Shown here piece after piece: positions 48,389 to 52,391 of a DNA stretch of 64,000 nucleotides. A program made the position numbers and the translations under genes. Every line of letters begins with the position of its first letter. The first letter of the stretch is position 1. The stretch lies in NCBI RefSeq assembly GCF_014764505.1, contig NZ_JACXWX010000010.1, forward strand, positions 148,001-212,000, given 5' to 3'. Below the pieces are notes generated by a model. It was not told the origin of the DNA. It did not search any database and saw only the letters and a program-made list of their open reading frames with translations. Origin of the DNA: Phormidium tenue FACHB-886 (lineage in GTDB: Bacteria; Cyanobacteriota; Cyanobacteriia; Elainellales; Elainellaceae).

Positions 48389-49168
48389 ATGTGGGTTTTT
48401 TGTTGCGGTATGTACCGCTCTGCTTCAACACTGCAATTTCAGATTACCGCTCGGCTAGTCAAAGAAAATCAATTGGGTCAACAGGTTGGCTGGATCGATG
48501 CCAATCGCTTTTCGGAAATGCGTGATGCTTATGCGAATGTAGAGGGTTTAAAGGTTATCAAAGTTCATCGCTGCACTCCCTCAATTGCTTCAGAGTTTAT
48601 GCACAATCAAGCGATCGGTATTTATACATTCCGGGATATTCGAGATGTTTATGTTTCCAGCATGTCCCAGAGAATGAAGTCGTTTGAATTTATCTGGGCA
48701 GAAGAATTCATTGAGAGCTGCCTAGAAGAATTCAAACGCTGGACTCAGCCACCGAATGTACTTGTCTCTAAGTATGAAGAAATTATTGCCGATGTACCTA
48801 AAGAAGTGAAGCGGATTGCAAACCATCTCGGAATTCCAATGGAGCCGCACCAGTATATAGCGGTCGCGGCAGATTATTCGCTCCAATCTCAGCAGAGACG
48901 GATTGAGAAGTTCAAACAGCAGTTGCTGCAGCGTGAGCGTGATCCAAACGATCACCGGGAGCTGGTCGACTATCACGACGAAGAGAACTTGCTCCATCTA
49001 AATCATATTGCTTCTGGTAAGACAGAACGCTGGAAAGAATACCTGTCTGCCCAAGAAGTAGAGCTAATAGAGCAGCGCGTTAAAACTTGGTGTGCCGAGA
49101 ATGACTTTTCTCCTGCCCTGTTTTTGCGGGATGTCTTACAGCTAGAGCGCAATCAACTAAATCATTAG
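48389..49168 (+). CDS. sulfotransferase family protein
   Basis: 259 residues. It probably transfers sulfate from PAPS to an unknown acceptor. The 5'-phosphosulfate loop is CGMYRSASTLQFQI near the N-terminus and the 3'-phosphate site is FRDIRDVYVSSM. The C-terminal SGKTERWKEYLSAQEVELIE matches the P-loop-partner region of the family. No signal peptide, so it is cytosolic. Base composition seems lower in GC than nearby genes and it stands alone, which fits an accessory gene of surface polysaccharide or natural-product sulfation (inference). Confidence 0.85.
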   Translation: MWVFCCGMYRSASTLQFQITARLVKENQLGQQVGWIDANRFSEMRDAYANVEGLKVIKVHRCTPSIASEFMHNQAIGIYTFRDIRDVYVSSMSQRMKSFEFIWAEEFIESCLEEFKRWTQPPNVLVSKYEEIIADVPKEVKRIANHLGIPMEPHQYIAVAADYSLQSQQRRIEKFKQQLLQRERDPNDHRELVDYHDEENLLHLNHIASGKTERWKEYLSAQEVELIEQRVKTWCAENDFSPALFLRDVLQLERNQLNH

Positions 49169-49181
49169 TCCAACACAATAA

Positions 49182-49214
49182 CAACAGAGGCAGACAATCT
49201 GTCCGCCCCTGTTG
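49182..49214. terminator. bidirectional terminator
   Basis: CAACAGAGGCAGAC pairs with GTCCGCCCCTGTTG (two mismatches) around five bases. It is 14 bases past the sulfotransferase stop codon and 27 bases from the end of the convergent hli gene. Confidence 0.6.
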
Positions 49215-49240
49215 CTCTATTATTCAATTGATCGAGTCAC

Positions 49241-49489
49241 TTAGTGAAGCAGATGCAGCACATCACGCAGTACGCTATATCCTGCGGCATCCCACAGCAG
49301 GTAAGCCACAAAACCAATCATTGCTAGACGACCGTTCCAAAGCTCCTGCTGAGGCGTCCAGCCAATCAACCAAGCGTTACGATCGACACCATTGTAAGCG
49401 GGTGCAAAACCGCTATATTCTTTTACGTTGTTGTCAATTGCAGATGCATTAGCAGCTGCGCTAGTTGTTTTGGGTGATTCGGTTTGCAT
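49241..49489 (-). CDS. high-light-inducible protein (single-helix CAB-like)
   Basis: 82 residues from ATG 49489 (MQTESPKTTS); the ORF could start three codons earlier. The chlorophyll-binding motif ELWNGRLAMIGFVAYLLWD holds the Glu, Asn and Arg of ExxNGRxAM that define HLIP/ELIP helices. One membrane helix. The N-terminal 50 residues are hydrophilic (NNVKEYSGFAPAYNGVDRNA). Family members bind chlorophyll and carotenoid and protect photosystems and assembly intermediates under high light; this copy is next to psaJ. Confidence 0.93.
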   Translation of the reverse strand: MQTESPKTTSAAANASAIDNNVKEYSGFAPAYNGVDRNAWLIGWTPQQELWNGRLAMIGFVAYLLWDAAGYSVLRDVLHLLH

Positions 49490-49635: not shown

Positions 49636-49779
49636 CTATGGGTAAAACAGCAGGTCAGGGAAGAAAGCATTAATGAAAACCCAGGTTGAGAAGGCAACTG
49701 AGACCGAAAGAACAGCAAGTACTGGGGCTAAGGAAAGATACCGACTGAAAAAACCGGGTTGATTGTTCGATTGCGCCAT
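49636..49779 (-). CDS. psaJ: photosystem I subunit IX (PsaJ)
   Basis: A 47-residue single-helix membrane protein that is easily missed because of its size. The sequence shows the PsaJ pattern: YLSLAPVLAVL at the membrane entry (PsaJ commonly YLSTAPVLA) and the ending FFPDLLFYP (PsaJ commonly FYPDLLFHP). An AGGAG ribosome site lies about nine bases upstream of the start codon at 49777-49779. The N-terminus (MAQSNNQPGFFSR) is a few residues longer than usual. Normally psaJ follows psaF, but here psaF is absent; the gene lies between a DUF4383 gene (79 bases upstream) and hli (146 bases downstream), on the same strand. Confidence 0.85.
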   Translation of the reverse strand: MAQSNNQPGFFSRYLSLAPVLAVLSVSVAFSTWVFINAFFPDLLFYP

Positions 49780-49858
49780 GAGTAGTTCTCCTAAATCTTT
49801 GGAAGCGAAGAAACAGTTGAGAAATGTTGCACCTGAAGGTGCTCTGTGCGGTCCAGCT

Positions 49859-50305
49859 CTAGATGCTGTTTACTCTACCAATTCCTGACTCGAAAGGTGC
49901 CGATTTTACAAAACCGTAGTAGAAAGCAATGACCGCTGTCAATAGATTAAACCAGACATTATTGCCATAGATCGGCATTGTGCTGAACAAAGTATTGGTG
50001 TAAGGGAACAAACCTAAAACGGCAAGCCCAATGTAGAGGACGGCAAAAACTTTGTTGAAAGTGATTGATCCACCCAGGCTAGTGTAGGCGGCAATCCCCC
50101 AAAGCCCAACCAAGACGTGAATTGCATTATGGAAGTGGTTGGTAGGAAAAATGCCAAAAAGATAGCCATGGGCGTAAACCAGAGACAGATCTGGTGGGGA
50201 AGCGACAAAACTAGGCACAAACCCAGCTAGACCAATCAACAGGAACATGACGCCCAAACCAAGGGCGCAGAAGCGAATTTTTATTGCATCAGCAGCGGTT
50301 TGCAT
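49859..50305 (-). CDS. DUF4383 family membrane protein
   Basis: 148 residues from ATG 50305 (MQTAADAIKIRF), with a GGAGC ribosome site; the frame is open further upstream to 50347. Four hydrophobic segments: LGLGVMFLLIGLAGFVPSF, the AIHVLVGLWGIAAYTS helix, VFAVLYIGLAVLGLFPY and LLTAVIAFYYGF. The conserved HNAIHVLVG motif marks DUF4383. The function is unknown. It starts the likely operon DUF4383-psaJ-hli, so a role near photosystem I or under light stress is a reasonable inference. Confidence 0.85.
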   Translation of the reverse strand: MQTAADAIKIRFCALGLGVMFLLIGLAGFVPSFVASPPDLSLVYAHGYLFGIFPTNHFHNAIHVLVGLWGIAAYTSLGGSITFNKVFAVLYIGLAVLGLFPYTNTLFSTMPIYGNNVWFNLLTAVIAFYYGFVKSAPFESGIGRVNSI

Positions 50306-50598: not shown

Positions 50599-51387
50599 CT
50601 ACATGCCTGACGAGTATCCAGGTTCTGTTTCAGAGGCAGGAACATCTAAATTCTTAAGCGGGTTCTCTGCTTCCTTCACCTTAAAGGCAGAAGGTGACAT
50701 GGGGGTTCCTCCCATTGCCTCTAGAACCGCTGCTGGTGGCTCTTGTCGACCTGGAGCCGTTAGATATTTGCCAGTTAAAACAGGGTTTGCAGGCTTAAGT
50801 TTGTGCTGGATGCTGTAGTAGCGATGGCTTTGCCCGATCATGCCGCGTTCCTGTAAAGACTCGTTGGCGATCTTCTTACGCAGCTTGATGATGCCATCAA
50901 TAACCGCTTCTGGACGGGGAGGGCAACCGGGAATGTAAACATCAATTGGGAGAATTTTATCTGCTCCACGAATTGCCGTTGGCGAGTCCGTGCTGAACAT
51001 GCCTCCCGTGATCATGCAGGCTCCCATGGAGATCACATACTTGGGGTCAGGCATTTGCTCATAGAGACGCAGCGTGGGTTGCGCCATCTTCATTGTGAGA
51101 GTGCCTGCCAGGATGATTAGATCGGCTTGACGGGGACTGGCTCGCGGCAGCAAACCGTAGCGATCGAAGTCAAAGCGCGAACCGATTAGCGCTGCAAATT
51201 CAATGAAACAGCAGGCAGTGCCATACAGCAGGGGCCACAAGCTAGAAAGCCTTGCCCAGTTGTAGAGATCGTCAACCGTTGTCAGGATGACATTTTCTGA
51301 TAGCTGCTGAGTGATTAGAGGATGCCCAATTGGATTGCTAATAAAATCCGATGCTGGTTGTTGTCGATCGGGAAAAGCGTTGGTCAT
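50599..51387 (-). CDS. ndhK: NAD(P)H-quinone oxidoreductase subunit K
   Basis: Iron-sulfur subunit (NuoB type) of the NDH-1 complex, which in cyanobacteria takes electrons from ferredoxin into plastoquinone for respiration and cyclic flow. 262 residues from ATG 51387 (MTNAFPDR). The N2 cluster cysteines are in [20 protein letters not shown] and [11 protein letters not shown]. The C-terminal 55 residues after YYSIQHKL are a low-conservation tail. In most cyanobacteria the order is ndhC-ndhK-ndhJ; here ndhK has neither neighbour, which suggests a second copy or a split operon. Confidence 0.93.
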
Positions 51388-51839: not shown

Positions 51840-52391
51840 ATGAAAAAATTAGTTGCTTTTTTGAAAAAGTTGCCGATCGCCAGATTTGCGATCGTTTCTT
51901 TGCTTGGTGCAATGTTGCTGGTGACAACTGCCTGCAACAGCGGTAATGAAGTGGGTGCGCGTCCTAACAATCTGCCTGTGCAAATGGGTGGGCAAAATAA
52001 TCCTCACAAGATGGGCGGAGATGGATATACAAAGTACAACACCTCTCCTAATCCCATCTCAAAACAGGATGCAGACCGGGCGAGCTTACCAGAATCAGCT
52101 CAGTTTCTGATCGCATCAAATGAGCCGAAGACTGAGTCTGATGACTTTGTGCTTTATCCCGCTTCAGGTGAATATCGATCTGCCAAGAGCGCAGATGAGT
52201 TCTTTAGCCCAGAGAAGCAGGCTAAATTAGCCAAAACTAGACAAAACCCGGACGAAGGACAACCCAAAGTTACGGGGAATGCGAATCCCAATGGAGAAGT
52301 TTTAGATAAGGCAGGCGAAACCTTTAAAGACGCCTCTGGTTTCCTAGGAAAACCAGCTGATGATAGCTACAATCGCTCAGGCTTAGAGTAG
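51840..52391 (+). CDS. hypothetical lipoprotein
   Basis: 183 residues from ATG 51840, which follows an AGGAG ribosome site. Lipoprotein signal peptide: basic start MKKLVAFLKKLP, hydrophobic FAIVSLLGAMLLVTTAC, with C32 the lipidated residue. The mature part is hydrophilic, Asn/Gly/Lys-rich (QNNPHKMGGDGYTKYN), with no recognised domain; the middle (SLPESAQFLIASNEP) and FFSPEKQAKLAKTRQ are the only distinct segments. I do not recognise a named function. It faces the periplasm or outer face of a membrane. Confidence 0.72.
   Translation: MKKLVAFLKKLPIARFAIVSLLGAMLLVTTACNSGNEVGARPNNLPVQMGGQNNPHKMGGDGYTKYNTSPNPISKQDADRASLPESAQFLIASNEPKTESDDFVLYPASGEYRSAKSADEFFSPEKQAKLAKTRQNPDEGQPKVTGNANPNGEVLDKAGETFKDASGFLGKPADDSYNRSGLE

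Follow-up and report, generated by a model that had tools for sequence, protein, structure and literature searches.

A second, divergent PsaJ encoded apart from psaF as a candidate subunit of an alternative, non-far-red photosystem I

The analyses of the window, which is the whole 64,000-nucleotide stretch of Phormidium tenue FACHB-886 DNA, and of the genome containing it (G000; 8.93 Mb in 255 contigs) identified a second psaJ gene that is encoded apart from psaF. Its product belongs to a separate clade of PsaJ proteins, for which we coined the name PsaJ', and has lost the residues that interact with the PsaJ chlorophylls. We propose, with a probability of about 0.55, that psaJ' encodes an alternative subunit IX of photosystem I (PSI) within a dispersed, non-far-red set of PSI and NDH isoform and photoprotection genes, and that its product would reduce the number of chlorophylls at the PsaF/PsaJ edge of PSI, lowering excitation pressure under stress.

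The psaJ' gene, its surroundings and its genome

The psaJ' gene occupies 47 codons on the minus strand (49636–49779), with an AGGAGA ribosome-binding site read from the sequence 7 bases 5' of its ATG (49787–49792, minus strand). Its product, MAQSNNQPGFFSRYLSLAPVLAVLSVSVAFSTWVFINAFFPDLLFYP, matched the Pfam profile PSI_PsaJ (PF01701) at 33.8 bits (E 5e-8; curated cut-off 22.4 bits), bearing out the original prediction that this short frame encodes a PsaJ. Against the NCBIfam equivalog for PSI subunit IX (NF002743) it scored 29.1 bits, well under the cut-off of 69 bits. Compared with 16 relatives, the window gene differed mostly at the third codon position (e.g., 7/2/22 and 8/5/26 at positions 1/2/3), and because of this concentration we regard the frame as that of a protein under purifying selection. 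Genes of 47 codons are often omitted from annotation, and yet they can encode isoforms of a major complex.

The neighbours named in the original prediction were both confirmed by Pfam on the strand of psaJ'. A DUF4383 membrane protein gene (49859–50305; 111.9 bits) is located about 80 bases upstream, and hli, for a single-helix chlorophyll a/b-binding-like protein (49241–49489; 24.3 bits over the cut-off), is 147 bases downstream. One strong terminator-like hairpin of 17 pairs (49180–49216, minus strand) follows hli and closes this run of same-strand, photoprotection-type genes. Because the hairpin comes after hli, DUF4383, psaJ' and hli may be a single transcription unit. Upstream of DUF4383, across a gap of 294 bases, is ndhK2 (50599–51387, minus strand), which encodes an NdhK paralogue, and we are unsure whether it is a member of this unit. 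Two genes on the plus strand that were unseen beside psaJ' at other loci flank the unit, a sulfotransferase-like gene (48389–49168) and a DUF6658 gene (51840–52391). Phage and plasmid collections held no match indicating carriage of psaJ'.

No psaF directly precedes psaJ', and none was found anywhere near it in the window. The original prediction that psaF is missing therefore held for the neighbourhood and not for the genome, as an ordinary psaF-psaJ pair is present at 789.5–790.1 kb of contig C1, its psaJ scoring 78.7 bits. The count of psaJ genes and the search for a psaF-psaJ pair, which had been suggested as checks, returned exactly two PsaJ and one PsaF by profile matching, with one canonical pair. 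Since G000 also holds this ordinary pair, the window gene is a second psaJ, and a displaced single psaJ was ruled out. PsaA and full PsaB were each identified once, both on C112. In a search covering psaA, psaB, psaF and psaJ, the far-red gene set was not seen in G000, which had one psaA, one full psaB, one psaF and no PsaJ2.

A separate clade without the usual chlorophyll ligands

The window protein was used to search 388 genomes of the class, and 22 loci, including the window's own, scored 51–93 bits, the next best match being at 37. When 84,980 species genomes were scanned with the alignment of those loci, 52 loci were obtained, 50 of which were of the PsaJ' type. The approximately 50 named members are in Nostocales, Leptolyngbyales and Chroococcidiopsidales, and their carriers include Nostoc, Calothrix, Scytonema, Brasilonema, Fischerella, Chlorogloeopsis, Leptolyngbya, Oculatella, Aliterella and Gloeocapsa, among others. 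The window copy is 56–80% identical to clade members of other genera. In a careful tree, PsaJ' was set apart from canonical, far-red and TS-821-like PsaJ with 100/97 support, and the comparison with canonical PsaJ thus upheld the suggestion of a second PsaJ, which proved to be divergent. A quick tree with all rows gave the clade a support of 99, with six long-branched odd sequences joining it. The alignment has 49 columns only, and inside the clade taxa were mixed and no firm branching order emerged.

Eight genomes of the Chroococcidiopsidales type, among them Aliterella, Chlorogloea and Gloeocapsa, had PsaJ' as their only PsaJ match, situated within psaF-psaJ-psaL; in Aliterella the flanking PsaF and PsaL were confirmed by Pfam. 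Because it is the sole psaJ of these genomes and sits between psaF and psaL, the PsaJ' type is very probably a working structural subunit of their PSI. In 38 of 39 other genomes examined, PsaJ' stands alone and a further PsaJ is present, nearly always beside psaF where this was checked. We consider use in PSI to be very likely for the clade and likely for the window copy.

Canonical PsaJ (PSI subunit IX, PF01701) is a one-helix protein whose core, YLS..PV(L/I)A ... N..FPDLLF.P, is common to the window PsaJ'. The three PsaJ chlorophylls interact with Thr22, Glu28 and His39 in the structure from T. elongatus, and all three pigments are missing from far-red PSI, in which PsaJ2 is without Thr22 and Glu28 (PMC7002129). 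The three ligand residues are typical of PsaJ, though missing from some accepted members, and the canonical proteins in our alignment had Thr22 in 58/64, Glu28 in 63/64, Arg31 in 62/64 and His39 in 59/64. By contrast, Ala22 was found in 46/46 stand-alone PsaJ', Glu28 and Arg31 in 0/46 each, Trp26 in 44/46 and His39 in 41/46. The window copy has Ala22, Phe28, Ala31 and Tyr39, such that all three ligand residues are replaced, its loss of His39 being rare among stand-alone PsaJ'. Thus, where canonical PsaJ is usually, though not necessarily, encoded directly after psaF and has Thr22, Leu26, Glu28 and Arg31, the window PsaJ' is encoded alone, lacks Thr22, Glu28, Arg31 and His39, has Trp26 and belongs to a separate clade, sharing with its members Ala22, the absence of Glu28 and Arg31, Trp26, the N-terminal extension and its placement in the tree. 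Based on the replaced residues, we infer that PsaJ' would leave fewer chlorophylls at the PsaF/PsaJ edge.

The N-terminal extension, with DQ or NQ and an aromatic residue, is common to Nostocales PsaJ and absent from the ordinary PsaJ of G000. Because of this match, transfer of psaJ' from a Nostocales or Chroococcidiopsidales donor is likely, though not proven.

The lost ligands, together with the hli and DUF4383 genes adjoining psaJ', would also suit a role outside PSI for PsaJ' of stand-alone loci, which would be a single-helix protein cooperating with Hli or DUF4383 to handle chlorophyll or to assemble or repair PSI. We find such a role improbable, because the remaining PsaJ sequence is kept, including Asn30 and FPDLLF, and stand-alone and psaF-linked PsaJ' have the same residues.

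A second PsaJ isoform without chlorophyll-ligand residues, serving an alternative PSI, has a precedent in PsaJ2 of far-red light photoacclimation (FaRLiP) (PMC7002129, PMC10694217), and the loss of Thr22 and Glu28, as in F. thermalis PsaJ2 (PMC7002129), might suggest that psaJ' is itself a far-red psaJ2 or belongs to a disrupted far-red cluster. We give this virtually no credence, and for G000 it is already refuted. PsaJ2 is encoded in the far-red cluster and has a C-terminal insertion with Tyr40, ending PGLQYGT.FH, whereas the window PsaJ' has no insertion, ends PDLLFYP, lies outside any such cluster and falls in a separate clade. In addition, far-red PsaA2, PsaB2 and PsaF2 are absent from G000, and some genomes (e.g., G409 and G422) have both types together.

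By sequence, the solved structure closest to Chroococcidiopsidales-type PsaJ' was the PsaJ of PDB 7QCO (48.9 bits). It resembles PsaJ' in its N-terminal extension and in the replacement of Glu28 (by Val28), but it has both Thr22 and Leu26, and in the tree its place is outside PsaJ', among the psaF-linked PsaJ proteins of Scytonema, Brasilonema and Calothrix. We take this entry to represent the tetrameric PSI of Chroococcidiopsis TS-821 (PMC8760143).

Other unusual PsaJ genes were observed. Four genomes (G019, G026, G032 and G017; L042, L044–L047), from two genera of the window's family, have a third odd PsaJ type with Ile22 and Asn28 or Tyr28 and without Asn30, and one of them, G026, has four PsaJ genes. 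At L078 (G081:C7:103380-103865), two different psaJ are in tandem, one canonical and one ending INWVSPDLLFLAE. A cyanobacterial psaF-psaJ-psaL (L135; JACCVJ010000193.1) is present in a metagenome-assembled genome named Tatlockia (Legionellaceae), a record that is mislabelled or contaminated.

Recurrent neighbours of psaJ'

The order and identity of the genes around psaJ' differ among genera, which ruled out one fixed psaJ' operon. DUF4383 was found within 8 kb of psaJ' at 11/43 stand-alone loci and in 0/40 control regions of 16 kb, drawn at random from the same genomes or from related ones (p 5e-4, Fisher), a test that, like the other Fisher tests here, ignores shared ancestry, the psaJ' loci spanning several genera in at least two orders. 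The gene was mostly directly upstream and on the same strand, and it is sparse, at about one per genome (54 copies in 36 of 48 genomes, the other 12 having none). Further recurrent neighbours, all absent from the controls, were one particular short-chain dehydrogenase (8 loci; p 0.006) and CrtW (4), Hli (4), NdhK2 (3) and Mn-catalase (2), the last four not being significant singly. At least one of DUF4383, Hli, NdhK, NdhI, CrtW and Mn-catalase was nearby at 16/43 stand-alone psaJ' loci and at 0/40 controls, all six families being absent from the remaining 27/43. The identities of the neighbours were verified by Pfam and NCBIfam. In other genomes, several of the Hli proteins most closely related to that of the window are encoded beside psaJ' or DUF4383. 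The NdhK proteins encoded at psaJ' and PsaB2 loci, including that of the window, fell outside the ndhC-linked NdhK clade (100/100) and have kept their cysteine motifs.

The proposed light-stress unit is favoured by this gene order, in which DUF4383, hli, crtW, Mn-catalase and the NdhK paralogue recur, and by the hairpin after hli, but not by promoter motifs. The HLR1 high-light motif was absent upstream of 43 psaJ' genes, the window having matches only at chance level; NtcA-like sites, in 4/43, were not notable.

The variability of the neighbourhoods bears on a simpler explanation, that PsaJ' is a surplus copy with no role of its own, horizontally spread or an old duplicate, interchangeable with the ordinary protein and kept in general stress islands or insertion hot-spots by chance and gene traffic. 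Such a history would fit the mixing of taxa in the poorly resolved interior of the clade, the ordinary job that PsaJ' does alone in Chroococcidiopsidales and the loss of Glu28 from the ordinary PsaJ of some Nostocales as well. We judge it unlikely, given that the clade consistently has Ala22 and Trp26 and lacks Glu28 over dozens of species, that psaJ' has a third-position bias and that DUF4383 adjacency is far above the control, all of which speak for a specific role that has been preserved.

Similar islands with a second NdhI and NdhK, Hli and DUF4383 and without psaJ' were seen at L188 (G394:C68), which also has CrtW, and at L189 (G422:C121). In FACHB-502, a bacteriorhodopsin-like gene, recognised by eye, is two genes from psaJ' (L033 1985–2791; G005:C34).

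Second PsaB genes and the proposed PSI isoform

A search with a PsaB tail from G000 exposed full-length second PsaB genes in relatives. An alternative PsaB2 has been known in Nostoc since 2011 (alr5314; Magnuson 2011, reviewed in PMC4582080), with no known condition for its use. Like PsaJ', it is encoded on its own as a second version of a PSI subunit and is unconnected with FaRLiP, PsaB2 being a core subunit and PsaJ' a small one. D577Q, which adjoins an FX-ligand cysteine, and R714W were present in 22/22 PsaB2 compared (eight from the window's group and Pantanalinema, 14 from Nostocales), and Y563F (20/22), I578T (20/22) and D582E (18/22) were nearly fixed. The reported changes in PsaB2 surround FX and phylloquinone (PMC4582080), and the residues that we identified fit them. 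A single clade of all second PsaB was not recovered, as a quick tree kept f1-family and Nostocales PsaB2 apart despite the same diagnostic residues; either an older duplication with gene conversion or convergence may explain this likeness.

Several PsaB2 genes are close to members of the psaJ' set. In CCP2, PsaB2 is 5 kb from psaJ' in a stretch that also holds NdhK2, DUF4383, CrtW, a glycosyltransferase and Hli, and in Pantanalinema the distance from psaJ' to PsaB2 is 0.9 kb. In G009 and G030, NdhK comes within 0.5 kb after PsaB2, NdhI is 0.8 kb from PsaB2 in G424, and Hli is 2 kb from it in G421. Overall, set members were within 6 kb of 6/19 PsaB2 loci and 0/21 canonical psaB loci (p 0.007, Fisher). 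In the window's family, PsaB2 co-occurred with an alternative PsaJ, either PsaJ' or a second odd type (7/2 versus 1/11; p 0.002, Fisher), by counts read by hand from the tables, genomes with incomplete PsaB, including G000, being left out. The literature searched contained no report of a link between PsaB2 and PsaJ', NdhK2, CrtW or Hli and, within its partial coverage, no paper describing a second PsaJ other than the far-red one or connecting DUF4383 with photosynthesis.

PsaB2 is intact in G005, G006, G009, G011 and G023, and G000 has no intact copy. The PsaB tail used in the search is a 77-codon frame (G000:C46:76328-76558; L217 4329–4562; L335) with no PsaB sequence upstream, and it is 89% identical to the tail of CCP2 PsaB2. 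Because it carries the R714W mark, we assign it, from its sequence, as a PsaB2 remnant. With PsaB2 decayed to this remnant, PsaJ' of G000 would have only ordinary PsaB to work with, seemingly also its partner in Chroococcidiopsidales.

Based on these observations, our preferred reading is that psaJ', which is separate from psaF, is probably transcribed as one unit with DUF4383 and hli, downstream of an NdhK paralogue gene, and that its product most likely substitutes for ordinary PsaJ next to PsaF in part of the PSI complexes. This exchange would remove the chlorophyll sites served in ordinary PsaJ by Thr22 and Glu28 and, for the window copy, His39. Chlorophylls would thus be thinned at the PsaF/PsaJ edge, where outer antennae may feed PSI, and excitation pressure would be lowered under oxidative or light stress. 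Together with hli, DUF4383, crtW, Mn-catalase and NdhK2/NdhI2, as well as PsaB2 as an alternative core subunit, PsaJ' would belong to a loosely clustered gene set. The dependence on stress or light and the coordination of an alternative PSI/NDH kit are hypotheses that the gene order supports.

The original prediction was thus partly supported as a whole. Its modified PSI is made plausible by the genomes in which PsaJ' is the sole PsaJ within psaF-psaJ-psaL, by the lost ligands and by the link to and co-occurrence with an alternative PsaB, the far-red form being excluded for G000. Only the far-red programme of PSI subunit swapping is well described, and the PsaJ' set suggests a modified PSI unrelated to it.

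More tentatively, and at rather less than even odds, we speculate that several orders share a second, non-far-red PSI/NDH-1 kit that is dispersed and has been repeatedly re-clustered. Its components would be PsaB2, changed beside FX and in the last helix; PsaJ', which lacks ligands for peripheral chlorophylls; paralogues of NdhK and NdhI, which are iron-sulfur subunits; Hli; DUF4383; and CrtW. Such a kit could provide a PSI with an altered acceptor side and a smaller antenna, linked to cyclic electron flow and used during desiccation, oxidative stress or oxygen shortage, with PsaJ' as a missing small-subunit partner of PsaB2. The PsaJ isoform, the NdhK/NdhI paralogues and the photoprotection genes would be concrete partners for the unexplained PsaB2, and the set gives a testable prediction that relates cyclic electron flow to stress from light or oxidation.

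The only PsaB detected in the relative G019 (G019:C24:33918-36131; L280) carries the PsaB2 diagnostic residues, and the only PsaJ of this relative (G019:C3:130252; L042) is of another odd type (...IAVLLSYFVYFVPDRLFFPA). This genome is perhaps that of a cyanobacterium running wholly on an alternative PSI.
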